Below are positions 7,885-49,329 of a DNA stretch of 58,202 nucleotides, piece after piece. This DNA is from Solirubrobacteraceae bacterium (GTDB lineage: Bacteria; Actinomycetota; Thermoleophilia; Solirubrobacterales; Solirubrobacteraceae): positions 1-58,202 of the forward strand of contig JAUXSD010000182.1 of NCBI GenBank assembly GCA_030681525.1, in the 5' to 3' direction. The notes under the pieces are model-generated. The model did not search any database. It was not told the DNA's origin and saw nothing but the letters and a program-made list of their open reading frames with translations. How positions within the stretch are numbered: position 1 is the stretch's first letter; every line of letters begins with the position of its first letter. A program made the position numbers and the translations under genes.

Positions 7885-7894
7885 CCGCGCGCGG

Positions 7895-8320
7895 CTACTG
7901 CCTCGCCTCGAGCTGCTCGCGCATGCGCTCCTCGGCCTCACGCAGCTCCGGCGTCAGCTCGTCGCCGAAGTCGGCGGCCTCGAAGACCTGCCGGACCTCG
8001 ATCTCGGAGTCGCCCTCCATCGGGTTCGGGCAGCGCTTGACCCATTCGAGCGCCTCCTCCATCGAGCGGACCTCCCACAGCCAGAAGCCGGCGATGAGCT
8101 CCTTGGTCTCGGCGAACGGACCGTCGACGACGCTGCGCTCGGAGCCGCTGAAGCGCACGCGCGCGCCGTTGGAGCTGGGGTGCAGCCCCTCGCCGGCCAG
8201 CATGATGCCGGCCTTCACGAGCTCCTCGTTGTACGTGTTCATCTGCTCGAGCAGCTCGGTGCTCGGCATCTCGCCGGCTTCGCTCTCGGGGGTTGCCTTG
8301 ACGATGACCATGACGCGCAT
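7895..8320 (-). CDS. DGPF/YCII-domain protein
   Basis: A 141-residue protein of the YCII/DGPF family. The signature VVDGPFAETKELIAGFWL is clear in the middle, and MRVMVIVKAT is the usual first beta strand. The family has a ferredoxin-like dimer fold; its biochemical role is mostly unknown. In actinobacteria such genes are the standard partners and targets of ECF42 sigma factors, as here. AGGAGG lies six bases before the ATG, so this gene leads the operon and is well translated. Its upstream region is shared with the divergent biosynthetic operon starting at 8479. Confidence 0.9.
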   Translation of the reverse strand: MRVMVIVKATPESEAGEMPSTELLEQMNTYNEELVKAGIMLAGEGLHPSSNGARVRFSGSERSVVDGPFAETKELIAGFWLWEVRSMEEALEWVKRCPNPMEGDSEIEVRQVFEAADFGDELTPELREAEERMREQLEARQ

Positions 8321-10557: not shown

Positions 10558-10567
10558 GAGGGACGCC

Positions 10568-13500: not shown

Positions 13501-14929
13501 GATCATGGTCACCGACCTCGCCGGGCGCATCACGCAGGCCCTGCCCGGCGTCACCTTCGATCCCGGCGCGTTCACCTGGGAGGCCACGATCGGCGACCTG
13601 ATCGCGCACCTCACGGGGCGCGCCGGCGGCGCGGCGGTGCCTGCGGCCGAGGCCGAGGCCGAGGCCGTGCCCGTCGCGAGCGTGGATGGAACGCAACCCG
13701 CGGCGGCGGTGGCCGAGGAGTCGCGCATCGAGGACTTTCCCGAGGTGCGCGAGATCGCCGACCGGTTGCGCGGCGCCGCGGCGCTGGGCCTGGAGAACCC
13801 GTACTTCCTCGTCAACGACGGCGTCACCCGGGACACCTCGGTCATCGACGGCAACGAGACGGTCAACTTCTCAAGCTACAACTACCTCGGGCTGTCCGGG
13901 CATCCGGTGGTCACCGCGGCGGTGCAGGACGCCGTCGCCCGCTACGGAAGCTCCGTGTCGTCGAGCCGGCTGCTGTCCGGAGAGAAGCCGGTGCACCAGG
14001 AGCTGGAGGCGGAGCTCGCCGCGCTGCTCGGGAGCGACGACGCCATCGTGCTGACCGCCGGGCACGCCACGAACGTGTCGGTCATCGGCCACATCGTCGG
14101 CCCCGGCGACCTGCTGATCCACGATGCGCTGGCCCACAACAGCATCATGGAGGGCGCCAAGCTGTCCGGCGCGACGCGCCGGCCGTTCCCGCACGACGAC
14201 GCCGCCGCGCTCGACGAGATCCTCACCGCCGTCCGCCATGGGTACCGCCGGGTGCTCATCGTGGTCGAGGGTGTCTACAGCCAGGATGGCGACATCGCCG
14301 ATCTGCCCGCGCTCATCGACGTCAAGCGGCGCCATCGCGCGCTGCTCATGATCGACGAGGCGCACAGCCTCGGCGTGCTCGGCGCCGCCGGGGGTGGCGT
14401 CGGCGAGCACTTCGGCGTCGACCGCGCCGACGTCGAGCTCTGGTCGGGCACGCTGTCGAAGTCGCTGGCCAGCTGCGGCGGGTACGTCGCCGGCAGCCGC
14501 GAGCTCATCCAGTACCTGAAGTACACGACGCCGGGCTTCATCTTCAGCGCCGGCATGACCCCGGCGAACGCGGCCGCGGCGCTGGCCGCAGTGCGGCAGA
14601 TGCGCGCCGAGCCCGAGGCGCTCGCGGCGCTGCAGCGCAACGCCGAGCTCTTCCTCGAGCTGGCCCGAGCGGCCGGCGTCGACACCGGTGACAGCGCGGG
14701 CACGCCGATCATCCCGTGCATCGTCGGCGACTCGCTGAAGACGTTGAGGCTCTCGACCGCGCTGCTGCGCCGCGGCATCAACGTCAACCCGATTCTGTAC
14801 CCGGCGGTGCCCGAGGAGCTGGCCCGGCTGCGGTTCTTCGTGACCTCCTGCCACTCGGAGGAGCAGATCCGCCACGCCGTGCAGGCCCTGGCCGAGGAGC
14901 TCGCGCTGCTGCGCGAGCCGGTGGCGTGA
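10568..14929 (+). CDS. KS-AT-ACP-alpha-oxoamine synthase megasynthase
   Basis: A 1453-residue single-module type I polyketide synthase fused to a PLP enzyme. The ketosynthase (about 1-425) has the triad C171 (DTACSSSL), H306 (EAHGTGT) and H346 (KGNLGHTEG). The acyltransferase (about 520-820) has S613 in GHSVGE and the HAFHS motif near 715, which predicts malonyl-CoA. No KR, DH or ER is present, so the beta-keto group stays. The ACP carries S978 (DLGFDSIM). The C-terminal domain (about 1060-1450) is of the 8-amino-7-oxononanoate/serine palmitoyltransferase type, with MIDEAHSLGVLG and the PLP lysine K1298 in GTLSKSLAS; it should release the chain by decarboxylative condensation with an amino acid. 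GAGAGGG precedes the ATG. A second in-frame ATG with strong SD lies at 13259, just before the ACP. Confidence 0.93.
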   Translation: MTAIAIVGMDGRFPRAPDLDALWQLLLAGGDGIAEVPDDRWPVADFYDAAGGPGTSNTRNAGLLSDADAFDHEFFAIAPSEAAAMDPQQRLLLQTAWRALEDATIDPRSVAGSNTGVYVGLMASEWSSVHLIDFARITAQHGSGAGYFMNANRLSYHLDLKGPSVAVDTACSSSLVAVQQACTALRAGACDQALAGGVNLVLTPALNIFYTQAGLSAPDGRCKPFSAHADGIGRGEGVAVLVLRRLADAVDAGLPIYAVIEGGAVNSDGRSNGITAPNRWAQKQVLTSAYRDAGVAPEQIDFVEAHGTGTVLGDMIEAKALADVHGRGSGRAAPCAIGSIKGNLGHTEGAAGIAGLIKAALSLHHGILPPSRFADEPNPQLRLADNGLRLADEATALPGGVVRAGVSSFGIGGTNAHVVLASAPATRDAGDGAPSRAILTVSSAGRDGLRRAAAGLADDLGASPAGRFGQLAWSSNRVKASGRHRLAICAHDRDQAADALREAAADEARLSAVSGVARPISAGWLFTGQGSQYPGMSRALHDTCALYRDALAAVDDAMAPHLGRSIRELLFEADGDTIDRTEFAQPAIFALEYAVAAALATVGVLPAWMLGHSVGEFAAAVIAGVFDLADASALVVARGRLMQELPAGGGMLAVGTGEAEVADLIAGEPALGLAAVNGPREVVISGDASALERVRGELSERGVAHKRLAVSHAFHSPSMAPAAAAFGEVASRLAYGAPEIPIYSTVRGRLLAFDEPMDGAYWVEQITSPVRFADAAGEALQADPTHLLEIGPRQILAPIVARIAPGSDIPALLPCPGPAATGDELDEVVAALYRDGLDPAWDALSEPGQRVPRRLSGYAFSTDRRFWMQQTPPGQGGAAPAAPAASSPVTTSREDPTMDGLIALFREQNAVLAALANNGARPATSAAAGRPDRPAAPGAAGATQIAATVRAQAALVSGFPQDTLRDTHSLTGDLGFDSIMVTDLAGRITQALPGVTFDPGAFTWEATIGDLIAHLTGRAGGAAVPAAEAEAEAVPVASVDGTQPAAAVAEESRIEDFPEVREIADRLRGAAALGLENPYFLVNDGVTRDTSVIDGNETVNFSSYNYLGLSGHPVVTAAVQDAVARYGSSVSSSRLLSGEKPVHQELEAELAALLGSDDAIVLTAGHATNVSVIGHIVGPGDLLIHDALAHNSIMEGAKLSGATRRPFPHDDAAALDEILTAVRHGYRRVLIVVEGVYSQDGDIADLPALIDVKRRHRALLMIDEAHSLGVLGAAGGGVGEHFGVDRADVELWSGTLSKSLASCGGYVAGSRELIQYLKYTTPGFIFSAGMTPANAAAALAAVRQMRAEPEALAALQRNAELFLELARAAGVDTGDSAGTPIIPCIVGDSLKTLRLSTALLRRGINVNPILYPAVPEELARLRFFVTSCHSEEQIRHAVQALAEELALLREPVA
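13244..13261 (+). promoter_or_regulatory. Internal Shine-Dalgarno and in-frame ATG within the megasynthase
   Basis: AGGGAGG at 13244-13250 stands eight bases before an ATG at 13259 that is in frame with the megasynthase (Met898). Initiation here would give a separate 556-residue ACP-oxoamine synthase. The spot coincides with the linker between AT and ACP, where a Pro/Ala/Ser-rich segment ends and a helix (MDGLIALFREQNAVLAALA) begins. It looks like the start signal of a formerly separate gene kept after fusion. Confidence 0.55.
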
Positions 14930-16424: not shown

Positions 16425-16527
16425 GGCGCGGGATCGGCACGCCTGGCCGCCCGATGCCTCCCGCCGGGTGGCGAGACCCGGATGCGCACCTTCGGACCTG
16501 GCGCGTCACGATGCCCGTCTGGAGGGT

Positions 16528-28467: not shown

Positions 28468-31400
28468 CTACGCCATGCCTGCCCGGGCCACCGGGACCAC
28501 GATCGAACGATCGGCGACGTCGAGCCGGGCGAAGAGCTCGTCGGCCCGTTCCTGCAACGCGACCGCATCCGGTGCGCCCAGCCGCGCGAGCACCTCGGCG
28601 GACTGGGCCTCCTCGAACTCGGCCGAGGCGCCGCGGGCCGTGTCGAGGCTCGTGCGCAGCAGCTGAAGCGCCGCGGGCCCGTCGCCGAGCCGGAAGAGCG
28701 CGATCCCGAGCACGCGGTCCAGCGCGGCCAGCAGCACGGGGTTGCCGCCCAGCGCGACCGTCCGCGCGCGGGCGCCGCTGGCGAGGTTCGCCGCCGCACC
28801 CCAGTCGCCCGCGCGCAGCAGGCGCTCGGCCTGCCGGCTGTCGGTCTCCGCGACGTCGTCGGCGGCGCCGATGCGCTCGTACCCGTCGCGGGCGCCGGCG
28901 AGCAGCAGCTCGGCATCGACGAGCCTTCCGTCGCGCGCCGCGAGGCGTCCGAGGTTGCTCGTCGCCAGCGCGACGCCGATCGGATAGTTCGCCGCCGTCC
29001 AGACCGCCAGCGCCTCCTCGAACAGCGTGCGGGCAGGATCCAGGCGACCCTGGTCGGACAGGATCTCGCCGACGTTGTTGGCGGCCGTCGCGCTCTGGAC
29101 GACGTCGCCCGTGCGGTCGCGCTGGCGCTTGCTGCGCTCGAAGAAGTCCAGCGCCTCCGCCCAGCGGCCGGCGAAGTACGCGTTGACGCCGAGGTTGTTG
29201 AGCACGATCGCCTGCCCCGCCGGCTGGTCGAGCGCCTCGTAGATCTCCAGCGCCTGCGGCAGCAGGGAGGGATCGGGCCGGCCCTCGTCCACGAGCGCCC
29301 AGTCGAGCAGGTACAGGCAGTGCGCCAGCGACGCCCGGTCGGTCGATCGCCGGAGCGTCGCGTGCGCGTCGGCGAGGACCACCGCCGCGCGCCGGAAGCG
29401 CCCCTGGCGCAGCAGCGCGGCGCCGCGGCCGACGAGGAGCTGGGCGCGAACGGTGTCGGCCTCGTCGCCGGCGGGCGCGTCGCGGACGCTGCGCAGGCCG
29501 CGGGCGAACCAGCGCAGCGCCTGGTCGTAGCTGGCGCTGCGCTCGCGCAGCCAGCCCTCGCGCCGCTGCAGGTCGGCCACCTCGAGCGGCCGCCCGCTCG
29601 CGGCGCGCCGGGCCGCCCGGTAGCCCGCGGCGGCGTCGGCGTAGCGGCCGGCGAGCTCCGCGCAGTCGCCCAGCCGCGTCGCGACCTCGCGCAGCTCGTC
29701 GGCCCGCCGGCGCATGTGGCGGCCCGCCTCGAGGGCGCGCTTGAGGTGCGTCGTGGCCTCCACCGGCGCGCCCGCCCGCTCCGCCCGCGCGGCGGCGAGG
29801 CCGGCGTAGCGCCATGTCCGGGCGTGGTCGCGCGCCATGTCGAAGTGCAGCGCCAGCGCGGCGGCGGCCTCCTCCCCCGACCGCGCCTCGATGGCGAGCC
29901 CGGCTTCGCCGTGCAGTGCGCGCCGGCGGCGGTAGGCGAGGCTCTCGTACGCCGCGTCGCGCAGCAGCGCATGCGCGAAGGAGAGCGTTCCGTCGCCGCT
30001 GGCCTCCAGCACGCCGGGCACCGGCGGCGGGGCAGCGCGCAGCAGAGCCTCGAGGTCGGCCGCGCGGCAGCGGGCGCCGAGCACCGACGCGACGCGCACC
30101 GCCTCACGCTGCGCCGGCTCGAGCGTGTGGATGCGGACGGCCATGAGCGCATCGACGCGGTCGGGCAGCGCGTCGGGGTCGCTGCCCTCGCGCACCGCGC
30201 GGGCGAGCTCGGACAGCAGCAGCGGGTTGCCGCGCGCACGCTCCACGAGGCGCCGCACGACCGCGCTCGGCAGCCGCGCGCCGCCTGCGTCCACGAGCGC
30301 GATGGCCGCGCGGTCGCTGAGCGGCTCGATCGCCAGCATGCGCGCCGACGCGATCGCGCTGGGATCGAGGCCGGTGGCGACGTTGCGCCGCGTGATCACC
30401 ATGCACCAGCCGCAGGCCTGCGCCTCGCGCGCGAGCGCGACGACGACCGCCGCGCTCGCGTCGTCGAGCCAGTGCCCGTCCTCGACGAGCAGCACCGACC
30501 CGGTGGTCAGCCGGTGGCGCAGCAGGCGGGCCACGCCGTCCGCGACGGCGCGCTGCCGGGCGGCCGCGTCGAGGTGGCGGGTCGCCGGGCTCGTCTCGGC
30601 GTCCAGGCCGATCGCGGCACAGACGAGCCCGTCGGCCGGCTGCGCTCCGTCGCTCGTGGCCGCGAGCGCGTCCGCGAGCGCGGCGGCGGCGGTCGCCGGC
30701 GGGGCGTCGCGCGGGATCGACAGCATCGCTCGCAACGGGCCGTTGAGCGCGCCGTAGGGCGTCGCCACGCCGTACGCGCGGCCGTCCACGCGGAAGCGGA
30801 CCTTGTCGCCGAGCGCGTTCGCGACGAGGGCGGACTTGCCGAGGCCCGGCTCCCCCGTCACGACGACGATGCGGCCGGCGCCCGGGCTCGCCGTGCGCCG
30901 TGCCTGCGTCAGGAGCGCGTGCTCGGCGTCGCGGCCGACGATGGCCGTCGCACGCGGCTGCCGTCCGACGAGCGACGGCGGCCCGGCGATCGCCGTGTGC
31001 ACGAGCTCCGACTTGCCCTTCGCGGCGAACGGCGCGAAGGGCTCCAGTGCCCAGCCGGCCTTCGTCGTGTCGAGCGTCCCGAGCGTCGCGAGGACCCGTC
31101 GCGGTGGCGCGCGATGGGCCACGCGCGCTGCAAGGTTGACGGTGTCGCCCATGACGCTCCACGCGCGCCGGCCGCGCATCGACACGTCGACCATGAAGCC
31201 GCGGCCCGACGCCGCACCCCCGGCGACCGCGAGCGGGACATCGGTCTCGACGACGGCGCGCAGGGTGCTGAGCAGGGCGTCCGCGTCGGCCTCGCCCGCC
31301 ACCGGAGCCCCGGACACGAGGTACGCCTTGAAGCCGTCCGCGGCGCAGTCGAGCGACACCACGGTGACGCCGTGATCGGCGCAGGCGCCGTGGACGCGCT

Positions 31401-32214
31401 CGACGACGGCCTCGATCGCCGGCCCGGCGGCCCCCGGGTCGTGGTCGAGGAGCTCGTCGAGGCCGCGGACGACGACGAAGCCCGCCGTGACCTGGCGATG
31501 CTCGCTCTCGACGCTCTGCGCCAGGTGCCTGGCCAGACCGTGCGGCAGCGCCTGGGCGGCGATGTGCTCCTCCGCCGCGGTATCCGAGCCGGCCCGCGGC
31601 ACCGCCTCGCACGACGGGCGGGCGAGCAGCGGGGAGCCGGCCTGCTGGCGCGGCCCGAGCAGCTGCGGATCGAGCGCTCGCGCCGTCGCCGGCGCGACGA
31701 GGATCTGCCCGGCCGAAGCCTCCCCCTCGCAGGCGCAGACGGTCGTCGCCGTCGGGCCGACGACGATGAGCCCGCGGTGCGGCCTACCGGCCGCCGCGAA
31801 CAGCAGCGGCCCCGACGCCACGCCGAGGCTGATGGACAGCTTGGCGCGGCCGAAGCCGGTCGTGGCCTGGCGAAACGGCCACAGCGCGCGCTGGAGGTCG
31901 TACGCCGCCGCCGCGGCACGGGCCTCGTGCCCCGGGTCGCGGAACCCGACGATCAGCGCGTCGCCGCCGAAGCCGAGGACGTCGCCACCGAGCTCCTGCG
32001 CCGCGCCCGCCAGGCGGTCCATGATGCGATCGATGAGCGTGATGAGGGCCTCGGTCCCCTCCCGGCCGTGCTTGGCGAGGCGCTCGGACAGCGCGGTGAA
32101 GCCGGAGACGTCGGCGAACAGGATCGAGCCGTCGATCCGGGTCAGGCCCGTCCGCTGCTCGGCGATCAGCTCGAGCAGGATCTCCGGGACGTACGGCGTC
32201 AGCGGCCGCGTCAC
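28468..32214 (-). CDS. Tandem class III cyclase domains fused to ATPase and TPR repeats
   Basis: A cytoplasmic protein of 1248 residues. The first cyclase domain (about 28-185) has the metal-binding DVSGFTALSERL and GGDALIVGF, but its transition-state Asn/Arg region reads GPTATTVCACEGEA. The second (about 243-415) has lost the first metal Asp (FVVVRGLDELL) but keeps GDTVNLAARV. The pair could therefore form a single composite active site, as in mammalian adenylyl cyclases C1/C2 and soluble adenylyl cyclase. A P-loop ATPase follows (GEPGLGKSALV, about residue 452), and then TPR-like helices to the C-terminus. The GTG start overlaps the Crp/Fnr stop by four bases. Product, cAMP or other, is not provable from sequence; the usual substrate Asp appears replaced by Ser in AWSVMGDTVN. 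Confidence 0.85.
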   Translation of the reverse strand: MTRPLTPYVPEILLELIAEQRTGLTRIDGSILFADVSGFTALSERLAKHGREGTEALITLIDRIMDRLAGAAQELGGDVLGFGGDALIVGFRDPGHEARAAAAAYDLQRALWPFRQATTGFGRAKLSISLGVASGPLLFAAAGRPHRGLIVVGPTATTVCACEGEASAGQILVAPATARALDPQLLGPRQQAGSPLLARPSCEAVPRAGSDTAAEEHIAAQALPHGLARHLAQSVESEHRQVTAGFVVVRGLDELLDHDPGAAGPAIEAVVERVHGACADHGVTVVSLDCAADGFKAYLVSGAPVAGEADADALLSTLRAVVETDVPLAVAGGAASGRGFMVDVSMRGRRAWSVMGDTVNLAARVAHRAPPRRVLATLGTLDTTKAGWALEPFAPFAAKGKSELVHTAIAGPPSLVGRQPRATAIVGRDAEHALLTQARRTASPGAGRIVVVTGEPGLGKSALVANALGDKVRFRVDGRAYGVATPYGALNGPLRAMLSIPRDAPPATAAAALADALAATSDGAQPADGLVCAAIGLDAETSPATRHLDAAARQRAVADGVARLLRHRLTTGSVLLVEDGHWLDDASAAVVVALAREAQACGWCMVITRRNVATGLDPSAIASARMLAIEPLSDRAAIALVDAGGARLPSAVVRRLVERARGNPLLLSELARAVREGSDPDALPDRVDALMAVRIHTLEPAQREAVRVASVLGARCRAADLEALLRAAPPPVPGVLEASGDGTLSFAHALLRDAAYESLAYRRRRALHGEAGLAIEARSGEEAAAALALHFDMARDHARTWRYAGLAAARAERAGAPVEATTHLKRALEAGRHMRRRADELREVATRLGDCAELAGRYADAAAGYRAARRAASGRPLEVADLQRREGWLRERSASYDQALRWFARGLRSVRDAPAGDEADTVRAQLLVGRGAALLRQGRFRRAAVVLADAHATLRRSTDRASLAHCLYLLDWALVDEGRPDPSLLPQALEIYEALDQPAGQAIVLNNLGVNAYFAGRWAEALDFFERSKRQRDRTGDVVQSATAANNVGEILSDQGRLDPARTLFEEALAVWTAANYPIGVALATSNLGRLAARDGRLVDAELLLAGARDGYERIGAADDVAETDSRQAERLLRAGDWGAAANLASGARARTVALGGNPVLLAALDRVLGIALFRLGDGPAALQLLRTSLDTARGASAEFEEAQSAEVLARLGAPDAVALQERADELFARLDVADRSIVVPVARAGMA

Positions 32215-34234: not shown

Positions 34235-35608
34235 ATGCTGCGGTTGGCCGGGGAGCAGGTCGAGTCGCTGTTTGATGAGGCGTTGCCGATCGAGGTACGC
34301 GAGTTGCCACACGATCTCGCGCGCCTCGACGAGTTGTTGAGTGATCCGGCGTTGCTTGCGCCGATCGCTGAGCGCTGGGAGGCCTCGGCCAGGGACCGTG
34401 GTCGGCCGACGATCGCAATGACGCTGTTTGTGCGGTTGATGGTGGTCAAGCAGCGCTCGGGCTGGGGCTATGAGACCTTGGTCAAGGAGGTTTCGGACTC
34501 ATTTCATCTGCGGCGCTTCGTCGGGGTGTCGGTGACGGCGTCGGTGCCGCACGAGTCCACGATCCGCAAGCTCGCCGGGCGTCTGGGCCCCGAGATCGTC
34601 GACGAGATCACCCGTGTGTTGATCGACAAGGCGGTGCGCGAGCGGCGCTTCAGCGCCCGGGCGATGCGCGTGGACTCCACCGTCGTGGAGTCCGACGTGC
34701 GCTGGCCCTCAGACGCCGCGCTGGCGTTGGATGCGACCCGCCGGTTGGCGCGCGAGGGCGCCCGCCTTGAAGGCTTGATCGGCGCCGGCGCCCAGCATGT
34801 CGTCGATCGTTCCCGGGCCGCGGGCAAGCGATTGCGGCTGATCGGCCGGACCGTCGGGCGGCGACTGGGCCAAACGGGCGGCGCGCGTGCGCAGGTCCTC
34901 AAACTGACCGGCGAGACCGGGCAGCTCGTCTCGCGCTCGATCCGCGAGGCGCGCCGCCTGGCCGCTCAGGCCCGCGCCACGGCCCGCGGCCGCGGCGCCC
35001 AGCGCAAGCTTCACGCGGCCGAGCGCCTGGAGCATTCGGCCGATCAGGCCGAGACGGTCGCGCGGCAAATCACGCAGCGGCTGGCGGGCGAGAAGATCAC
35101 CGACCGGCTCGTCTCACTCGCCGACCCCGACGCGCGGCCGATCGGCAAGGGCAAGCTCGGCAAACGCTACGAGTTCGGCTACGTCTTTCAACTCGCCGAG
35201 CTGACCGCGAACACCAGACGCGGCGCCAGGGGCCTGATCCTCCCAGCGGCCACCCAGATCGGATCACCCAACGAGAACGAGCTGCTTCCCGCCACCGCCG
35301 CCGAGCTCACACGACTCGGACTCATACCACGCGAGGTCGCGCTGGACGGCGGCTTCTCCCCACCCGCAAGCCAGGCCACGCTGCCCGACAGCACGCTGTT
35401 CATCGCCGGCCGACAACAACCCCCGACCCGCCGGCCCCGCAAGCGACTGGCCAGCTACCGCAACGGCTGCGAAGGACGCATCAGCCACCTCAAACGCCGC
35501 TACGGACTACGCCGATCACGCCTCCGAGGACACCCAGGAGCCCGAACCTGGGTCGGCTGGGGCATCCTGGCCTACAACCTCGACACCCTCTCCATCCGAA
35601 CCGGCTGA
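34235..35608 (+). CDS. DDE transposase of the IS
   Basis: A 457-residue transposase. The N-terminal domain reads LFVRLMVVKQRSGWGYETL and PHESTIRKLAGRLGPEI, as in DUF772-type transposases. The catalytic acidic residues are likely the Asp in AMRVDSTVVESDVRWPSD, the Asp in VALDGGFSPPAS and the Glu in NGCEGRISHLKRRYGLRR. A long Arg/Ala-rich helical insertion (about 200-290) separates the first two. The frame is intact, with GGGGGT shortly before the ATG, so the element may be active. Its codon use is slightly less GC-biased than that of the neighbours. Confidence 0.88.
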   Translation: MLRLAGEQVESLFDEALPIEVRELPHDLARLDELLSDPALLAPIAERWEASARDRGRPTIAMTLFVRLMVVKQRSGWGYETLVKEVSDSFHLRRFVGVSVTASVPHESTIRKLAGRLGPEIVDEITRVLIDKAVRERRFSARAMRVDSTVVESDVRWPSDAALALDATRRLAREGARLEGLIGAGAQHVVDRSRAAGKRLRLIGRTVGRRLGQTGGARAQVLKLTGETGQLVSRSIREARRLAAQARATARGRGAQRKLHAAERLEHSADQAETVARQITQRLAGEKITDRLVSLADPDARPIGKGKLGKRYEFGYVFQLAELTANTRRGARGLILPAATQIGSPNENELLPATAAELTRLGLIPREVALDGGFSPPASQATLPDSTLFIAGRQQPPTRRPRKRLASYRNGCEGRISHLKRRYGLRRSRLRGHPGARTWVGWGILAYNLDTLSIRTG

Positions 35609-36525: not shown

Positions 36526-36759
36526 ATGCGCGCAACCATTGATAAGGCAGGCCGGTTGGTCATCCCGAAGCGGCTGCGCGACGATCTCGGGCTGCGCCCT
36601 GGAGTCGTCGAGGTGCATGCCGAAGGCGCCGGGCTACGCGTCGAGCCGGTGATGGAGGACTCGTTGCAAGAGCGCGACGGAAGGCTCGTGATCCCGGCGG
36701 CCGGAGCCGCCATCGACGACGAGCTTGTGCGCGCGTTGCGCGATGCCGGCCAGCGCTGA
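36526..36759 (+). CDS. vapB: Antitoxin of the VapB type (AbrB/SpoVT fold)
   Basis: A 77-residue antitoxin. The N-terminus MRATIDKAGRLVIPKRLRDD is the swapped-hairpin AbrB DNA-binding motif, and LGLRPG is the usual turn. The C-terminal part (AAGAAIDDELVRALRDAGQR) would wrap the toxin. The gene overlaps the toxin gene by 17 bases. Such proteins repress their own operon together with the toxin. Confidence 0.85.
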   Translation: MRATIDKAGRLVIPKRLRDDLGLRPGVVEVHAEGAGLRVEPVMEDSLQERDGRLVIPAAGAAIDDELVRALRDAGQR

Positions 36760-37162
36760 CCTGCTCGTCGACACGAGCGTGGCCGTCGCGCTCGCGGTCG
36801 CCGATCACGAGCACCACGAGGCGACCATGGAGGCCGTCGGCCGGCGCAGGCTGGGCCTCGCCGGACATGCCGCGTTCGAGACGTTCTCGGTGCTGACGCG
36901 CCTCCCGTCACCGGCGCGCCGCGGTCCGGCCGTGGTCGCGCGCCTGCTCAGCACGAGCTTTCCTGCGACCCGATTTCTCGGCGCGCGTGCGACCGCGGCG
37001 CTCCTGGCCGACCTCCACAACGCCGGCATCGCCGGCGGCGCCGTCTACGACGCGCTGGTCGCGGCGGCGGCTCGGGAGCATGGTGCGGTCCTCGCGACGC
37101 GCGACCACCGAGCGCTCGACACGTATCGGGCGCTCGAGGTCACGGTCGAGCTGATCGGCTGA
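36743..37162 (+). CDS. vapC: Toxin of the VapC type (PIN-domain RNase)
   Basis: A 139-residue PIN-domain endoribonuclease. The conserved acidic residues are seen as LLVDTSVAVAL (first Asp), AAFETFSVLTRLP (Glu), YDALVAAAAREHG (third Asp) and LATRDHRAL (fourth). The ATG at 36743 is used because it puts the strand LLVDTS near the N-terminus; a TTG-like extension upstream is unneeded. Typical targets are tRNA or rRNA loops. It sits in the accessory region between an IS and the PrsW-STAND gene. Confidence 0.87.
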   Translation: MPASADLLVDTSVAVALAVADHEHHEATMEAVGRRRLGLAGHAAFETFSVLTRLPSPARRGPAVVARLLSTSFPATRFLGARATAALLADLHNAGIAGGAVYDALVAAAAREHGAVLATRDHRALDTYRALEVTVELIG

Positions 37163-37283: not shown

Positions 37284-37613
37284 TCAGTGTGCGCCCCGCG
37301 TTCTCGCGTGCCGCTCACGTCGGGGCGCCCGGCTCGGGTCGACGATGTAGATGTCGCTGCACATCAGGTCGGTCGCGTCGCCGAGCACCCGGGTCGCAGC
37401 GGTCAGCGCTTCGTCGCCGGGACGCTTGGACAGCGGGGTGAGCGCGGAGGCGAGGAGGTCGCGCAGCACATCGGGGATGGGTGGGGCGTCGGCTGACGAG
37501 GAGCCGCGTTCGTGGAAGCGGATCATTGCCTCCACGATCGTGATCAGCGTAAAGCTCGTCTCGACGAGCTGCTCGACGAACGCGTCGAGCGTGTCGGGGC
37601 CTGAGGAGGTCAT
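37284..37613 (-). CDS. Small helical protein of unknown function
   Basis: A 109-residue protein. It begins MTSSGPDTLDAFVEQLVETS, followed by FTLITIVEAMIRFHERG, an amphipathic helical pattern. The second half reads VLRDLLASALTPLSKRPGDE and ends in an Arg-rich tail. The ATG at 37613 has a weak AGG upstream; a start at 37655 would add an unlikely segment. Orientation is opposite to VapBC and to the PrsW-STAND gene. I do not recognise the family; similar short proteins sit near regulatory ATPases in actinobacteria, but that is only an impression. Confidence 0.5.
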   Translation of the reverse strand: MTSSGPDTLDAFVEQLVETSFTLITIVEAMIRFHERGSSSADAPPIPDVLRDLLASALTPLSKRPGDEALTAATRVLGDATDLMCSDIYIVDPSRAPRRERHARTRGAH

Positions 37614-38007
37614 ATCCAACCTAAGGGCCGTAGCGACCAGAGTTCGCCCCCCCATTGGTGTCGTGCGGACTCGAAGTCCCGCCAGAGCCCACCCCGACCG
37701 GCCTTGACAATGTGCGAGTTCGCTCGGGTGCGCGTGTCAGCGCCGCGATCACGGTCCGCTGGGGACAGACGACCGGCTGCCGAGTCAGCCTTCGCCAACG
37801 CCGCGACACAAGCCGATGCCGCTTCAAGCGCTCACCAGCGTCAGGTCGCCGCGGCATGGGGACAGCGCCACCCGCTCCCCGTCTGGACCTCCAGAACTGG
37901 GTGGCGGCGGGTCGCGGTCCCGCCTAGCGTTGGCGGGGATGGCACAGGTGCCCTCGATCCCGCCACACTCCCGATCGCGTGATCTCACGTAGGCGCGGTC
38001 GCCGAGT
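37614..38007. other. Intergenic stretch before the PrsW-STAND gene
   Basis: No gene is supported; the frames here are short and mutually overlapping. A small hairpin (CCCGCC at 37919-37924 with GGCGGG at 37932-37937) is the only structure seen. The promoters of the small minus-strand gene and of the large plus-strand gene must lie here, but no confident -35/-10 pair can be named. Confidence 0.4.
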
Positions 38008-41000
38008 ATGGACCCGCATTCGTATGCCGACGCCACGTTGGGCTGGCTCGCACCCCCACACGCTGCTCTCGGCAGCCCCGCGTTCTTCTTCACGTTCGCG
38101 GTCATCCAGGCGGGCGTGTTGCTGGTCCTGGTCCGGTTTCTGGATGTCTACGGTCGTCAGCCGTTCGGCCTGATCGCCCTCGTCGCCGTGTGGGGTGCGA
38201 CGGGTGCAGCGGCGATCTCGGTCGTCGGCAACGAGTTCGTGAAGGGGCTGTTGTCGGGCGATGTCGGGATCGTCTTCGGAGATGCGATCTCCGCTCCGCT
38301 GGTCGAGGAAGCCGCCAAGGGGGTTGCGCTGCTGGCTGCCGTCGGCCCCGTGCGCTGGCTGCTGCGCAGGGCCGGGGTCGACCTGTTCGAGGGTGTCGGC
38401 GCCGGGATCGTCTACGGCGCGGCGGTGGGTCTTGGGTTCGGGTTCACCGAGGACGTGTACTACCTCGTCGACGAGGCCCGCACTGCGGGCATCGACGCCG
38501 GGTTTGACACGTTCCTGTACCGGCGTGATTTCTTCGGGCCGGCGATCCTTCATCACGCGGTGTTCACGGCGGCGTTCGGTGCCGGGCTTGGCTTTGCCAC
38601 CTGGAGCACGGGCCGCGTGCGCAAGATCGCGTTCCCGGTCGCGGGCTTCGCGCTCGCGGTGCTGATGCATGCGGTCAACAACGGTCTCGTCGAGTTCGTC
38701 CTCGTGCTCGAGTACGGGGTCGGTCAGACGGCGGCGTGGCTGCAGGACCCCGCCGTCCTGCCGGCCGCCGAAGACACCGCTTCGACCGTGCGGCGGCTCA
38801 TGCGCGCGATCGACTTCTACTACCTGGCGATGTTCTTCGGGGTGGTCGTGCTCTGGACGCAGCGCCAGCGGCGGGTGATCCGCGAGGAGCTCGAGGAGGA
38901 GGTCGACCTCGGGCTGATCAAGCGCGCCGAACACGAGCTGATGTTCGACCGCGGGCAGCGCATCACCGCGGACTGGCGGCTGCTGCGCACGGGGCAGCTC
39001 GAGCGTCTGCGCCACCAACGGCGACTGCGCGGTCAGCTCGGGCAGCTCGGCCTCCTGAAGTGGCGGACCCGCCGCTCCGGCAAGGACGTCTCGCGCGTGA
39101 ACCGGGCACGGCGGGAGATCGCGACCCTGTCGACCTACGAGGTGGTCCCCGCCAAGCTCCCGGTGGCGCCGTCTGCCCTCATCGGCCGCGAGCGCGAGCT
39201 CGAGGAGATCGCCGCGGTGCTGCTCGGTCACGACGTCCGCGTCGTCACCCTGATGGGACCGGGAGGGACCGGCAAGACGCGGCTTGCGATTGAGGTCGCA
39301 TCGCTGCAGCGCGATCTCTTCTCGGCGGGCGTGTTCTTCGTCGATCTTGCCCCCCTGTCTGACCCGGACCTCGTTCCGAGGGCGATCGCGGACGTCCTGG
39401 AGGTGCCGGTTTCCCACGGCGAGTCGGTCGTCGCGGTCCTCGCAGACCATCTTCGCGACAAGCAGCTGCTCCTGGTGCTCGACAACTTCGAACAGGTCAC
39501 CGGCGCGGCCGCGTCGCTCGCCGAGATCCTCAGGGAGACCGGGCGGGTCAGGGTGCTCGCGACGAGCCGGGAGCCGCTGCGGATCTCCGGCGAGCACGAA
39601 CTGCCCATCCCGCCGCTCGAGCTGCCCTCCGCGGACGGCGAGGTCACTGCCACCGCGCTGGCCGGTAACGCCGCGGTCGCGCTGTTCGTCGAGCGCGCTC
39701 AGGCCGTCGACCCGGCGTTCGGGCTGACGGACGGTAACGCGGCGGCGGTCGCCGAGATCTGCATCGGCCTCGACGGTCTGCCGCTGGCGATCGAGCTCGC
39801 CGCGGCGCGCACGAACGTCCTCACGCCCGAGGCGATGCTCGACCGCCTCGGCGGGCAGCTCGGGATCCTGACCGGCGGCGCGCGCGACCTGCCCGCTCGC
39901 CACCAGGCGCTGCGCAGCACGATCGACTGGAGCTACGACATGCTCCCTCCCACCGAGCGGGCGCTGTTCAGGCGACTGGGTGTGTTCGTCGATGGCGCAA
40001 GCATCGAAGCGATCGAGGTCGTCTGCCGAAGCGACGACGACACCCCGCAGACGGTGCTCGACGCCATCGGGTCGTTGCGGGACAAGAGCCTCGTACGGCG
40101 AGCAGACGGCGCGGGCGGCGAGCCGCGGTTCGCGATGCTCGCGACGATTCGCGAGTACGCGCTCGAGCGCCTGCATGACTGTGGCGACCTTGCACAGACG
40201 CTCGAGCGTCACGCGAGGTACTTCGCCGATCTCGCCGAGCAGGCCGAGGGGCATCTCGTCAGCGCCGACCAGGCGGCCTGGTTCGATCGACTCGACAACG
40301 AGGTCGGCAACCTTCGCGCGGTCCTGCAGTGGTCCGGCGACGCCGGACGGTACGAGCTCGGGCTGCGGGTGGTCAGCGCGCTGCCGCGCTTCTGGAGCAT
40401 GCGCGGCCTCACCGATCCGTCGCGCTGGCTGTCCGAGGCGCTCACGCGCGACACCGGCGTCTCGCCGCCCGTCGGCGCCAAGGCGCTGTTCGCGGACGGG
40501 TACGCCGCCCTCGACCATGGCGACTTCGCGCGGGCCGAGATCCGCTTCGAGGCTGCCGCGGCTGCCTTCCGAGCGCTCGACGAGCCGCGCGGCACCGCCG
40601 CAAGTCTCGCGCAGCTCGCGTTCCTGCTGCTGGCCCGCGGGGAGCTTGAACGCGCCATCGAGGTGGCGCAGGAGAGCGTGCGACTCGCCCGTATGGTGGA
40701 CGACGCGAACGTCGAATCGGTGGCGCTCAGCACGCTCGCGGACGGCGCGGCGCGCTCCCATGACTACGCACGCGCGACGGAGCTCTACGAGCAGAGCCTC
40801 GAGCTCCGGCGCCAGCTCGGCGACCGCCGCAACATCGCCAACGCGCTGCTGAACTTGGGTCGGGTCGCGCTCGTCAGCGGCGAGGATGAACGCGCTCGGA
40901 CGCTGCTCGACCAGGGTCTGGCGATGGGCCGCGAGGTCGCCGACAGCTGGAGCATCTCGGTCGGTCTCGCCAGCCTCGGCCGGCTTGCCCTGCGCCAGGG

Positions 41001-41610
41001 CCGGCACGCCGAGGCGTCCGAGCTGCTCGGACAAGCGCTCGAACGGGCCGTCGAACGTGGCGGCAAGCGGCTCGCGGCGGAGTGCCTGAACGCACTCGCC
41101 GACGCCGCGAGCCATAGCGCGCCGCATCGATCGGCGCGGCTGTTCGGGTCCGCCGAAGCGCTCCGCCGTGCCACCGGCGGGTCGCTCTCTCCGCTCGAGA
41201 CCTCCGCCACGCAGGAGACCGTCGACGGCGTGCGCGCGACGCTGGGCGAAGACGAGTTCGCCACACAGTGGAACGCGGGCCTCGCCCTCAGCCTCGAGGA
41301 CGCCCTCGCCTTCGCACTCTCCGGATCGCCCGGCGATCCAGGATCAACGCGCGGCGCCGAGGTCGAGGCCTACCACGAGGCCGAGCTGGGCAAGCTGCTC
41401 GCACGGGTCCGCGAGGCGATCTCCCGCTACGACGCCGACGCGATCGACGCGTTCGAATTGGACGAGATCATCCGTCACTACCAACGCGCGACGCAGAAGC
41501 TGTCGGCCTACTGCTCCAACAGCGAGGCGATGCGCGGCGACGGGAACGACCACGACTGGTGGGACGCCGGCCGTGCCGGTCGCCGACCGCGTGGCCGACG
41601 CCCGACGTGA
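38008..41610 (+). CDS. PrsW-type intramembrane protease fused to NB-ARC/STAND ATPase, TPRs and a small C-terminal domain
   Basis: A 1200-residue protein of unusual design. Residues about 25-275 are a multi-spanning membrane domain with all PrsW motifs: E100/E101 and K104 in VEEAAKG, E148 in FGFTED, H182/H183 in LHHAVFTAAFG and H221 in HAVNN. These form a zinc metalloprotease site in the membrane. A basic cytoplasmic linker (285-380) leads to an NB-ARC ATPase (from about 385): P-loop GPGGTGKTRLA near 416, Walker B LLVLDNFEQV, and the GLPLAIELAAAR and STIDWSYDML motifs. TPR-like helices follow (about 780-1080). The C-terminal 70 residues (VREAISRYDADAIDAFELDE, ending DWWDAG) resemble a small stand-alone actinobacterial protein family. 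ATG start without a strong SD. The plan is that of an NLR-like sensor with a protease as effector. Confidence 0.85.
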   Translation: MDPHSYADATLGWLAPPHAALGSPAFFFTFAVIQAGVLLVLVRFLDVYGRQPFGLIALVAVWGATGAAAISVVGNEFVKGLLSGDVGIVFGDAISAPLVEEAAKGVALLAAVGPVRWLLRRAGVDLFEGVGAGIVYGAAVGLGFGFTEDVYYLVDEARTAGIDAGFDTFLYRRDFFGPAILHHAVFTAAFGAGLGFATWSTGRVRKIAFPVAGFALAVLMHAVNNGLVEFVLVLEYGVGQTAAWLQDPAVLPAAEDTASTVRRLMRAIDFYYLAMFFGVVVLWTQRQRRVIREELEEEVDLGLIKRAEHELMFDRGQRITADWRLLRTGQLERLRHQRRLRGQLGQLGLLKWRTRRSGKDVSRVNRARREIATLSTYEVVPAKLPVAPSALIGRERELEEIAAVLLGHDVRVVTLMGPGGTGKTRLAIEVASLQRDLFSAGVFFVDLAPLSDPDLVPRAIADVLEVPVSHGESVVAVLADHLRDKQLLLVLDNFEQVTGAAASLAEILRETGRVRVLATSREPLRISGEHELPIPPLELPSADGEVTATALAGNAAVALFVERAQAVDPAFGLTDGNAAAVAEICIGLDGLPLAIELAAARTNVLTPEAMLDRLGGQLGILTGGARDLPARHQALRSTIDWSYDMLPPTERALFRRLGVFVDGASIEAIEVVCRSDDDTPQTVLDAIGSLRDKSLVRRADGAGGEPRFAMLATIREYALERLHDCGDLAQTLERHARYFADLAEQAEGHLVSADQAAWFDRLDNEVGNLRAVLQWSGDAGRYELGLRVVSALPRFWSMRGLTDPSRWLSEALTRDTGVSPPVGAKALFADGYAALDHGDFARAEIRFEAAAAAFRALDEPRGTAASLAQLAFLLLARGELERAIEVAQESVRLARMVDDANVESVALSTLADGAARSHDYARATELYEQSLELRRQLGDRRNIANALLNLGRVALVSGEDERARTLLDQGLAMGREVADSWSISVGLASLGRLALRQGRHAEASELLGQALERAVERGGKRLAAECLNALADAASHSAPHRSARLFGSAEALRRATGGSLSPLETSATQETVDGVRATLGEDEFATQWNAGLALSLEDALAFALSGSPGDPGSTRGAEVEAYHEAELGKLLARVREAISRYDADAIDAFELDEIIRHYQRATQKLSAYCSNSEAMRGDGNDHDWWDAGRAGRRPRGRRPT

Positions 41611-44014: not shown

Positions 44015-44136
44015 TCCGGACCTTAAGACGCTCTCCCTCTCGACAAGACCTGTCGGAGAACATGGAGTCAGTTCAGGCCAGTCGGTCGCGCGGGGGCGCG
44101 CAGCCTGCGCGACGTCGCCTGCGCCGATCGTTCGGA

Positions 44137-44191
44137 CCGGTTCGAGTCCGGGCCTTTCACGTGCGTATGGCGAGACCCGGACTCGAACCGG
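44137..44191. repeat. Inverted copy of the tRNA T-arm
   Basis: CCGGTTCGAGTCCGGG at 44137-44152 is the exact reverse complement of 44176-44191, the T-arm of the tRNA-Phe gene. No other tRNA parts can be folded around the extra copy. Confidence 0.6.
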
Positions 44192-44240
44192 GGACACCAC
44201 GATTTTCAGTCGTGTGCTCTACCAACTGAGCTATCTCGCC
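44168..44240 (-). tRNA. tRNA-Phe (anticodon GAA)
   Basis: A 73-base tRNA folds without gaps: acceptor arms GGCGAGA/TCTCGCC, D-arm GCTC/GAGC, anticodon stem CACGA/TCGTG with loop CTGAAAA (anticodon GAA), and T-arm CCCGG/CCGGG with loop TTCGAGT. The discriminator base is A. CCA is not encoded, as usual in many actinobacteria. It reads towards the Calx-beta gene. Confidence 0.96.
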
Positions 44241-46298: not shown

Positions 46299-47822
46299 TC
46301 AGCGCGGGTCCGTCAGCCGTTCGACCTGGTCGTAGACGACGAGCCTGCGCTTCGTGCCCGTGACGCGCACGATCCCGAAGTAGCGAAATCGGCGGAAGTT
46401 CGCAGGCATCGCGACCCCGTAGGCGCGGGTGTAACCCGTCTCCTTCTTCTCGCCCGTCGACAGGTCGCCGCGGGGGCCGCCGCCGAGGACGACCATCGCC
46501 GTGGTCGGGACGCCCTCCACGCTGCGCACGCTGTCGAGCGTCTGAAACAGCAGCAGCTGGTAGCGCGGGCCGCCCGGGGTCAGCTGGATCCGGATCGTCG
46601 GGGGCGGCTCGCCGTAGTCGACGAGGCCGGCGTTCGCGACCGCCGTCGTGCCCGGCACCGATCGCATCGTGATCTGGTTGCCCTGACGCTCGCCGTCGTC
46701 GTCGTCGGACGTCGTCGCGGGCGTCGCCGCGGCGCCCCCGGGCGGGTCGGAGTCGCCGGCCAGCGACGCCAGCCCGGCGCCGGCGGCGAGGGCCAGCAGC
46801 AGGACCGCCGCCACGGCGACACGCCGTTTCCAGCCGCCGAGCCGCGCGCCGCGGTCGCCCGGCGTCGGCGTCGGCGCCGGCGCCGGCTCCCGCTCCGGCG
46901 CGGCAGGACCAGCCGTCCCAGCCGCGGGCTGCTCGCGGCTTCCCGTCGTATCGCGGATGACGGTCTCCGGGACGCCCTCGTCGGCGAGCGACGCGGTCCC
47001 GTGCGCCGGCGTGCTGATCGCCCGCTCGGCCTGCACGATCATCTCCGTCGCGCTCGTCTGGCGCTCGGCCGGCTCCTTCGCCATCCCACGCGCGATCACG
47101 TCGTCGACCGCCGGCGACAGCTCGGGCCGGTGGCTCGTCACGCGCGGCGGCGGGTTGGACATGTGGGCGTTGAGCACCGCCACGTCGGACGGCTGCGGGA
47201 ACGGCACCGTCCCGCACAGGCATTCGTAGAGCACCGCCGTCAGCGCGTAGACGTCGCTCGCGGTGCCGGCGGGCTCGCCGCGGATCTGCTCGGGCGAGAC
47301 GTAGTCGATCGTGCCGACGAACTGGCCGGTCTTCGTCAGCGCACGGTCCGCGGAGCTGCGCGTCAGGCCGAAGTCCGCCAGGTAGGCGTGGCCGCGGGCG
47401 CTGACGAGGATGTTCTGCGGCTTGATGTCGCGGTGCGTCATGCCGGCGGCATGCGCGGTGTCGAGCGCGTCGGCGATCGGCCTGAGCAGGCGGACCGCGT
47501 CCTCGCCGCCGAGGTCCTCCTCGGCGATGAGGTCCTTCAGCGTGCTGCCGCGCACGAGGCGCATCGCGATGAACAGGCCCTCGTCGGCCTCCCCGGCCTC
47601 GTAGACGGTGACGATGCTCGGGTGGTCGATCGACGCCTGCAGCTCTCCCTCGCGGCGAAAGCGCGCGCGGAACACCGGATCCTGGCTGAGGTGCGGATAC
47701 ATCACCTTCAGCGCGACGGTGCGGTTGAGCGACAGCTGCGTCGCCTCGTAGACGACGCCCATCCCGCCGCGGCCGAGCACGGACTCGATCCGGTATCCGG
47801 CCACCTGGTCTCCGGGCTTCAT
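46299..47822 (-). CDS. PknB-like transmembrane Ser/Thr protein kinase
   Basis: A 507-residue Hanks-type kinase. The N-terminal catalytic domain (about 10-270) has the glycine loop GRGGMGVVY, the lysine in VALKVM, HRDIKPQNIL, DFG in LADFGLTRSS and VSPEQIRG. A Pro/Ala-rich linker leads to one membrane helix (RVAVAAVLLLALAAGAGLASL, about 333-353). The external part of about 150 residues is not made of PASTA repeats and is not recognised; it ends in a beta-rich domain (GIVRVTGTKRRLVVYDQVER). ATG at 47822 chosen. Targets may include the FHA protein encoded close by. Confidence 0.9.
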   Translation of the reverse strand: MKPGDQVAGYRIESVLGRGGMGVVYEATQLSLNRTVALKVMYPHLSQDPVFRARFRREGELQASIDHPSIVTVYEAGEADEGLFIAMRLVRGSTLKDLIAEEDLGGEDAVRLLRPIADALDTAHAAGMTHRDIKPQNILVSARGHAYLADFGLTRSSADRALTKTGQFVGTIDYVSPEQIRGEPAGTASDVYALTAVLYECLCGTVPFPQPSDVAVLNAHMSNPPPRVTSHRPELSPAVDDVIARGMAKEPAERQTSATEMIVQAERAISTPAHGTASLADEGVPETVIRDTTGSREQPAAGTAGPAAPEREPAPAPTPTPGDRGARLGGWKRRVAVAAVLLLALAAGAGLASLAGDSDPPGGAAATPATTSDDDDGERQGNQITMRSVPGTTAVANAGLVDYGEPPPTIRIQLTPGGPRYQLLLFQTLDSVRSVEGVPTTAMVVLGGGPRGDLSTGEKKETGYTRAYGVAMPANFRRFRYFGIVRVTGTKRRLVVYDQVERLTDPR

Positions 47823-47869
47823 CGCGACGCCATTTGACCACATCGCGGGGGCGTCGAGGGGGCGGATCG

Positions 47870-48627: not shown

Positions 48628-49329
48628 TCAGACCCCGTCGCCGAGGTCGCGCTCGGAGATCTCGCCGCTCTGCAGCGCGAGCTCCACGAGCCGCGCGCGC
48701 TTGCGGTTCTGCGGCAGGTCGACGATGCCGAACTTCACGGTCAGCGCGCGCAGGTGCGTCTTGACCGCGTCGATGCTGAGGAACAGGTCCTCGGCGATCT
48801 GGCGGTTGGTGGCCGGCGTGGCGTACGAGCCCTCGGCCAGGACCGGGCGAGCCAGCGCGAGCAGGACCCGCCGCTGCGCCGCGGTGATCGCCAGCTCGGG
48901 CGCATCGACCCCGATCGACGTGCCCTGCGTCGTCGTCGGGCGCGCCGCGACCGGCGCGCGGTAGACGACGGTCGTCGCTCCGAAGCGCAGGCGGTCGCGC
49001 TCGGCGAGGCGTCGGCGCCCGCGCAGGCGCTCGCCGTTGAGGTACGTGCCGTTGCGCGAGAGGCCGTCGTCGGCGACCGTCCAGCGCCCGCCGAGGTGCT
49101 CGATCTCGGCGTGCAGGCGCGACACGTCGGTGTCCCAGTCGAGGTTCACGTCGACCTCGGAGCCGCGCCCGACGATGATCCGCCCCTGGCGCTCGGCGTC
49201 GAGCACGACGATCTGCTGGCGGCCGGCGTCGTCGGTGTAGAGCAGAAACGGGTGCCCCTCGCGCTCGGCCGCCAGGCGCGCCTTCAGCTCGGTCGGGGTG
49301 GCCTGGTGCAGCGGTGTCGGGTCGGTCAT
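48628..49329 (-). CDS. FHA-domain transcription regulator with HTH
   Basis: A 233-residue protein. The FHA domain (about 45-125) has the phosphothreonine-binding core GRIIVGRGSEVDVNL, SRLHAEI and SRNGTYLNGERL. The C-terminal part (about 145-225) is a helix-turn-helix region with TNRQIAEDLFLSIDAVKTHL and RALTVKFGIVDLPQNRKRAR. This layout (phosphopeptide reader plus DNA binding) recalls the Mycobacterium regulator EmbR, which is controlled by Ser/Thr kinases; a PknB-like kinase gene lies one gene away. GAGGA sits four bases before the ATG. The upstream helicase gene ends seven bases before it, so the two form an operon. Confidence 0.88.
   Translation of the reverse strand: MTDPTPLHQATPTELKARLAAEREGHPFLLYTDDAGRQQIVVLDAERQGRIIVGRGSEVDVNLDWDTDVSRLHAEIEHLGGRWTVADDGLSRNGTYLNGERLRGRRRLAERDRLRFGATTVVYRAPVAARPTTTQGTSIGVDAPELAITAAQRRVLLALARPVLAEGSYATPATNRQIAEDLFLSIDAVKTHLRALTVKFGIVDLPQNRKRARLVELALQSGEISERDLGDGV

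Follow-up and report, generated by a model that had tools for sequence, protein, structure and literature searches.

A PrsW membrane-protease domain joined to a regulatory-type STAND-TPR module in a single reading frame of a Solirubrobacteraceae bacterium

The fusion gene and its membrane protease part

The window analysed here is a stretch of 58,202 nucleotides from a Solirubrobacteraceae bacterium (assembly GCA_030681525.1, contig JAUXSD010000182.1, forward strand), and it carries a gene whose product joins a PrsW membrane protease domain to a STAND ATPase with TPR repeats. The 1200 residues are ordered as PrsW with a basic tail (1 to ~375), the nucleotide-binding oligomerisation domain (NOD) of the STAND part (391 to ~727), a TPR sensor (~728–1092) and an additional C-terminal domain (1116–1194), the last of which was missing from the domain list of an earlier note on this DNA. 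This architecture is unusual: its parts are known, the pairing of PrsW with STAND is new, and it comes from one genome so far. The positions of all features are collected in Table 1.

Table 1 Features of the fusion gene and of its surroundings (window positions)
Feature	Position	Strand	Basis or remark
PrsW-STAND-TPR fusion gene	38008..41610	+	1200 aa, ATG start, stop-free; homology in both halves, same frame
PrsW membrane domain, residues 24–284	38077..38859	+	PF13367 match, hydropathy, loop charges
PrsW motif 1 EExxK, residues 100–104	38305..38319	+	E100, E101, K104 invariant in 9/9 rows
PrsW motif 2, E148	38449..38451	+	invariant in 9/9 rows
PrsW motif 3, H183	38554..38556	+	invariant in 9/9 rows
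PrsW motif 4, H221	38668..38670	+	invariant in 9/9 rows
Basic PrsW tail, residues 285–390	38860..39177	+	25 K/R, 14 D/E; presumed cytosolic; homologous to tail of a STAND-less PrsW to about residue 371
STAND NOD and arm, residues 391 to about 727	39178..40188	+	AAA_22/NB-ARC/NACHT matches, AfsR 8k60 by sequence, model and 6mfv match; end from model
Walker A GPGGTGKT, residues 417–424	39256..39279	+	G417, G419, G420, G422, K423, T424 invariant in 7 aligned rows
Walker B region LLVLDN, residues 488–493	39469..39486	+	D492, N493 invariant (same 7 rows)
GLPLA motif, residues 590–594	39775..39789	+	G590, P592, A594 invariant (same 7 rows)
TPR sensor superhelix, residues about 728–1092	40189..41283	+	limits from model
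C-terminal extra domain, residues 1116–1194	41353..41589	+	related to a small separate protein, about 11 residues shorter
Transposase (context)	34235..35608	+	PF05598 over cut-off; DDE domain matches below theirs
MazE/AbrB-type antitoxin (context)	36526..36759	+	PF04014, 28.8 bits against 24.7
PIN-domain toxin (context)	36725..37162	+	PF01850, E 3.3e-13
tRNA-Phe bordering variable region (context)	44168..44240	-

The DNA of the window is ~70% GC and an antisense open reading frame (ORF) of 1067 aa overlaps that of the fusion; ORF length alone is therefore weak evidence. What supports the plus-strand frame as coding over its whole length is homology, which is seen at both of its ends, in agreement with the uninterrupted PrsW-STAND-TPR protein described in the earlier note. 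The GC content by codon position is even over the PrsW/STAND junction and throughout the gene, and for the 310 bases round the junction the longest match to the rest of the window is at most 22 bases. These features bear on the possibility that the gene is a recent chance fusion of a PrsW, a STAND and a small C-terminal gene, or a decaying island gene, without a selected joint function, or else a misassembly. Its occurrence as a single copy on one contig of a draft assembly (352 contigs, 5.35% contamination), the shortened C-terminal domain and the nearby transposase fit such an origin, but 1200 stop-free codons, the even codon-position GC and the absence of a long repeat at the junction do not, and modules of this kind usually carry their output at the N-terminus, as in 9 of 10 relatives scanned. 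We consider an accidental origin very unlikely.

Pfam assigns residues 52–233 to PF13367 (PrsW; E 2.3e-28, 99.5 bits against a cut-off of 23.5), which bears out the earlier assignment of residues 25–275 to PrsW, for which such a profile match had been proposed as the test. All four motif regions of the family (EExxK, E, H, H) are found in an alignment of nine sequences. The motifs that had been called intact hold for six residues, whereas within the H182/H183 pair H183 alone is invariant. Motif 4 of the fusion reads HAVNN, compared with HxxWN in most aligned rows, and is followed by an insertion. The score against the NCBIfam equivalog of Bacillus-type PrsW (NF033739) is 20.8 bits, far below its cut-off of 225.

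Seven membrane helices were set manually. Four of them reach the hydropathy threshold, and the three placed by eye (91–113, 129–151 and 177–199) are the segments that hold E100–K104, E148 and H183. With these helix limits, all six motif residues fall inside membrane segments, and the net charge of the loops alternates in a manner that places the N-terminus outside and the C-terminus inside; judged by this loop charge, the STAND-TPR part is predicted to lie in the cytosol. The invariance of the six residues and their position within the membrane segments as set argue against a PrsW part whose protease function has been lost or is unused and which would anchor a STAND regulator in the membrane or relay signals for it. 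The low equivalog score and the altered motif 4 with its insertion are what would be expected of such a protein, which we regard as quite unlikely. The catalytic class differs between libraries, Pfam describing a metalloprotease and NCBIfam a glutamic-type peptidase, so the earlier wording of a metalloprotease with a zinc site agrees with the former and not with the latter. A sequence search of the PDB with the PrsW part returned no related structure.

The closest PrsW found, in genome G391, is 42% identical over fusion residues 24–362. Its tail is homologous to about residue 371 and then continues with two hydrophobic-looking stretches (judged by eye) and no STAND; several other proteins have comparable-looking tails behind PrsW, again by eye. 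A call of DUF4190 for the tail of the G391 protein, made by eye, was dropped because Pfam does not call this family. As the same tail occurs in this STAND-less relative, the STAND module seems to have been added to a complete PrsW protein that already had its tail. Proteolysis by PrsW within or beside the membrane is a prediction from sequence.

A regulatory-type STAND module and an added C-terminal domain

The second part of the protein comprises a NOD with Walker A and B motifs, an arm and a TPR superhelix, as in the STANDs with TPR sensors of the AfsR/MalT/PH0952 type. Pfam matches AAA_22 at residues 411–507 (30.8 bits against a cut-off of 27) and TPRs (best TPR_12 at 906–974, 63.1 bits; longest TPR match 825–1014), and NB-ARC (PF00931) at 395–522 narrowly misses its cut-off (22.9 against 23.5 bits), a near miss that leaves the wider STAND class unaffected. 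The ATPase and the TPRs of the earlier description thus stand, with its NB-ARC label just under threshold. In relatives, the longer matches lie within residues 332–1127, covering parts of this range at about 31–46% identity. The scores for the AfsR equivalog NF053617 (60.2 bits, cut-off 1430) and for HaaT NF041717 (83.6 bits, cut-off 1125) are well below those required. In a Foldseek search with the modelled STAND-TPR part, the top match was the TPR-STAND PH0952 (6mfv), followed by Apaf-1, with plant resistosomes also listed and Avs3 at rank 7, all at low TM-scores. The order of effector, STAND and repeats that had been compared to NLR-type receptors is supported. AfsR is absent from the best 50 structural-alignment rows, which cover mainly the TPR part.

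Among 26 STAND frames collected, ten were scanned with Pfam, and their N-terminal outputs are a cyclase (five), a SARP (BTAD) domain (three), an HTH domain (one) and none clear (one); further output labels were given by eye. In plasmids, 16 of 30 listed matches (from 323 records) bear the annotation protein kinase or PknK. In a tree of 26 NODs, from which the duplicate row L038 was dropped, the fusion NOD groups with cyclase, SARP and HTH types (13 members, support 93/85); the tree is poorly resolved, with 4 of 23 inner branches starred, and the position of the fusion is otherwise unresolved. Because its relatives carry cyclase, SARP, HTH and kinase outputs, the STAND module of the fusion is, as judged from sequence, of a regulatory type (AfsR/PknK-like) with exchangeable outputs, and PrsW occupies the output position.

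The C-terminal domain matches small ORFs in the same genome (G000:C283) and in genome G011, with conserved YH, FELD and DWW residues (window 41353–41589; L044:2457–2918; L045:2731–3192), and the fusion copy lacks about 11 residues ahead of the final DWW motif. The L045 copy matches no Pfam family. The small-domain ORF of L044 lies near an apparent PIN gene, as judged by eye. A search of 198 genomes of the phylum, weak in that at most 25 candidates were scored per genome, returned the two copies of the own genome only, and no match was found in plasmid records. The domain may be a regulatory tail, or the remnant of a gene that has run into the fusion. An alternative reading of the whole protein is a PrsW of the polymorphic-toxin type, which would process its own C-terminal part so that it can be exported. 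PrsW-toxin fusions do exist, both in a 2012 survey (PMC3482391) and at locus L079:1241–3421, where PrsW is followed by a C-terminal CdiA-type RNase A domain. The C-terminus of the present fusion, however, matches no toxin family in Pfam, and the survey, in its treatment of PrsW fusions, keeps signalling and toxin versions apart; we hold a toxin to be highly improbable.

Distribution of the fusion and its genomic surroundings

PF13367 was matched in 47 of 399 genomes of the class, 99 of 396 of the phylum and 32 of 232 of the order (three overlapping sets), in at least 246 of 400 genomes of the phylum of G800 (among the matches listed, with weaker matches outside), in 47 of 149 of the phylum of G801 and in 2 of 6 genomes of the loci. 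The only frame longer than 860 aa among the PF13367 matches listed is the fusion of the window, and no STAND was seen behind PrsW in any of the 11 other listed matches above 700 aa or in the shorter ones that were read. A P-loop pattern run on 14 loci matched one frame, in L079, between the PrsW and RNase domains, where no ATPase family is found. L033 yielded no frame with the EExxK pattern, and the L075 frame, matched in the genome-wide PF13367 search, has no Pfam match at E 0.01. PrsW is fused to other domains elsewhere: besides the RNase of L079, an N-terminal FHA domain occurs in L081:1660–3672 and L085:947–2917 (2 of 9 frames scanned), a C-terminal DUF2510 in L030:22–2088, and a weak N-terminal TPR match below cut-off in L073:810–3383. 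The survey distinguishes PrsW with C-terminal toxins from PrsW with intracellular PilZ, cNMP, FHA or Zn-ribbon domains, the latter being likely signalling peptidases, and its section on PrsW fusions does not name PrsW with STAND (PMC3482391). Nor was such a fusion found in open-licence papers, searched mostly by titles and the beginnings of abstracts.

When residues 1–484 were used as the query against 146 genomes of the family, with at most ten candidates scored per genome, 68 genomes gave a match. Most matches fall in the STAND half and six rows in the PrsW half, and the window alone covers the whole of both. A match at 256–482 in G312 was rejected as a second fusion; its frame starts, by eye, like a SARP. 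The full protein returned six loci in genome contigs, all covering the STAND part and flanks from residue 359 on. Among plasmids, none of the 323 records that match the full protein does so over 80% of it, and the PrsW part alone gave no match. Three phage records match the STAND part only, and short-pattern searches of viral contigs gave 32 and 1 matches without a confirmed relative. No second PrsW-STAND fusion was thus found in the genomes searched, where fusions broken by contig ends would escape.

The gene lies in a stretch at 33–44 kb that also contains a methyltransferase and has a GC content of 0.67–0.72, compared with mostly 0.70–0.79 elsewhere in the window; further low stretches at 17–21 kb and 8–9 kb mean that this is no sharp signature. 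The insertion sequence and VapBC context of the earlier note is real (Table 1). Upstream, 845 bases separate the fusion from the end of the PIN toxin gene on the same strand, the interval holding only an unconfirmed minus-strand ORF (37284–37655) with no Pfam match, and downstream, at least 158 bases after the fusion and on the same strand, lies a gene for a Calx-beta protein. To the right of the variable stretch, tRNA-Phe and an M23 gene occur together in four of six congeners. Counting rows above 38% identity, the 3' side of tRNA-Phe lacks the 33–44 kb genes in three congeners, G001 (17 kb), G005 (18 kb) and G003 (4.9 kb), and the contig of G006 ends at that side. In G001 this flank carries a CBASS core about 12 kb from tRNA-Phe (L065:2840–5215), consisting of a CD-NTase (E 5e-112, PADLOC cyclase model) and TRIP13 (E 3.3e-113), and on the same flank an adenylosuccinate-synthetase-like protein (L065:6868–7908) of 346 aa, shorter than the 416-position family model. 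The tRNA-Phe flank is therefore a variable site that carries a defence system in one relative, which is not proof that the fusion is defensive.

An integrated element is not supported, since no complete second copy of the tRNA-Phe 3' end is present in the window; the best candidates for an attachment site are a match of 14 bases at 16469 and, at 44131, a T-arm-like stretch. This stretch, GGTTCGAGTCCGGG (44131–44150, plus strand), lies beside tRNA-Phe on the opposite strand and is perhaps a tRNA remnant. Nor did any of the 27 window ORFs scanned match a phage-type integrase.

An alternative reading is an NLR-like antiphage system, in which the TPR part would sense a phage product, the STAND would oligomerise and PrsW would cut a membrane protein, either a regulator held there or one that is vital to the cell, leading to arrest, death or a sigma-factor alarm. 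The NLR-like order and fold, the low-GC stretch with transposase and VapBC, the tRNA-Phe flank that lacks these genes in the three readable congeners and holds a CBASS core in one, and the patchy presence of the gene all agree with this idea, and CalpL is a precedent for a sigma-freeing protease in immunity (PMC11417357). The STAND, however, resembles the regulatory group, the phage and viral searches yielded STAND-part matches or no confirmed relative, and PADLOC returned for the fusion a generic TPR model and PDC-S39 at E 0.069, with no model of a specific antiphage system reached. For five other window proteins PADLOC gave partial matches in two (the cyclase protein to PycC models, the methyltransferase to mad2 at E 3.4e-17) and none in three. 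The defence role suggested by the earlier note thus finds no support beyond location, and its sober alternative, regulated proteolysis by a regulator of stress sigma factors, is better supported; we rate an immune function as unlikely.

Several other genes of the window were noted. About 6 kb off, another large protein (28468–32214, minus strand) combines cyclase, AAA and TPR domains, and it weakly matches the TPR part of the fusion. At 8788–14929, an AMP-binding enzyme lies together with a polyketide synthase module whose last domain is an aminotransferase; this looks like a small biosynthetic cluster. A sigma factor with DUF6596 adjoins a YCII protein (6634–8320, minus strand). A Ser/Thr protein kinase (46299–47843) lies near an FHA protein (48628–49329); as AfsR is phosphorylated by Ser/Thr kinases (PMC10936776), this pair is possibly linked to the fusion.

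Proposed mechanism and comparison with known systems

We favour a regulatory over an immune reading, and put at roughly 55% the probability that the fusion is a signal-gated intramembrane protease of the signalling-PrsW kind, restrained by its STAND-TPR part until ligand and ATP are present. As expected for signalling PrsWs, the PrsW domain is accompanied by a signalling domain, predicted from loop charge to be intracellular, and by no toxin. The fusion is equally describable as a signalling PrsW whose sensor is a STAND or as an AfsR-like STAND with a new output.

The proposed steps follow the behaviour of related STANDs. In AfsR, the NOD and TPR parts restrain the N-terminal output, which is freed by ATP and unaffected by ADP (PMC10936776), and double autoinhibition of TPR-STANDs has been described for PH0952 and MalT (PMC6468293). 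By analogy with these three proteins, the resting NOD would hold ADP and be closed by contacts of the TPR part and the arm. Binding of a cytosolic ligand or partner by the TPR part would, with ATP, open the NOD and let it cluster, which would bring the PrsW domains together or lift a block, so that PrsW is switched on. Activated PrsW would then cleave a single-pass membrane protein, either inside the membrane or just beside it. Bacillus PrsW is the first protease to cut RsiW upon envelope stress. By analogy with PrsW and RsiW, the likeliest substrate class would be an anti-sigma factor or a similar membrane-held regulator, the cleavage of which could lead to a transcriptional response.

A number of observations weigh against this proposal. 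With a single copy, conservation of the PrsW-STAND pairing cannot be shown. All six congeners lack a PF13367 match (two of these genomes are 70–77% complete), so the fusion is not a conserved core regulator. No anti-sigma domain is found among the ten ORFs scanned at 32–44 kb besides the fusion, and the only sigma factor among the 27 window ORFs scanned (6634–7941) is 30 kb away. The structural evidence is poor as well: the single-sequence model of residues 1–390 has a mean pLDDT of 48.5, too low to be of use, and the match to 6mfv has TM-scores of 0.35 and 0.42, with a root mean square deviation of 13.7 over 731 columns.

The signal-gated protease proposed here would share features with several known systems. 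With Bacillus subtilis PrsW, the site-1 protease of RsiW, it shares the PF13367 family and motifs, whereas it scores far below the PrsW equivalog; the Bacillus protein is not known to have a sensor module. FHA-, PilZ- and cNMP-PrsW peptidases, as the survey presents them (PMC3482391), likewise combine PrsW and an intracellular signal sensor in one chain, but the sensor of the fusion is a STAND ATPase with TPRs placed C-terminal to PrsW and followed by an extra domain. AfsR and the large SARPs, PknK, the cyclase-STAND-TPR proteins and MalT have the same NOD-arm-TPR module with an output at one end; their outputs are DNA binding, a kinase or a cyclase, whereas that of the fusion is a membrane protease. 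Antiviral STANDs (Avs) and bacterial NLR-like proteins resemble it in their effector-STAND-repeat layout and, for Avs3, in fold matches; the fusion differs in its regulatory-group NOD and its membrane protease effector, and its link to defence is one of location. CalpL/CalpT/CalpS is similar in concept, with no homology claimed: in this CRISPR-linked immune system, sensor-driven clustering activates a protease that cuts an anti-sigma factor, but through Lon and SAVED domains and a CRISPR second messenger (PMC11417357).

The fusion places a membrane protease under a STAND switch in a single chain. If the signal-gated reading is true, a cytosolic signal could start intramembrane proteolysis directly. 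It adds an output to the list of those carried by AfsR-like STANDs and offers a concrete example on which to test the idea of an NLR-like receptor whose effector is a membrane protease; were the immune reading true instead, regulated intramembrane proteolysis would be linked to STAND immunity.

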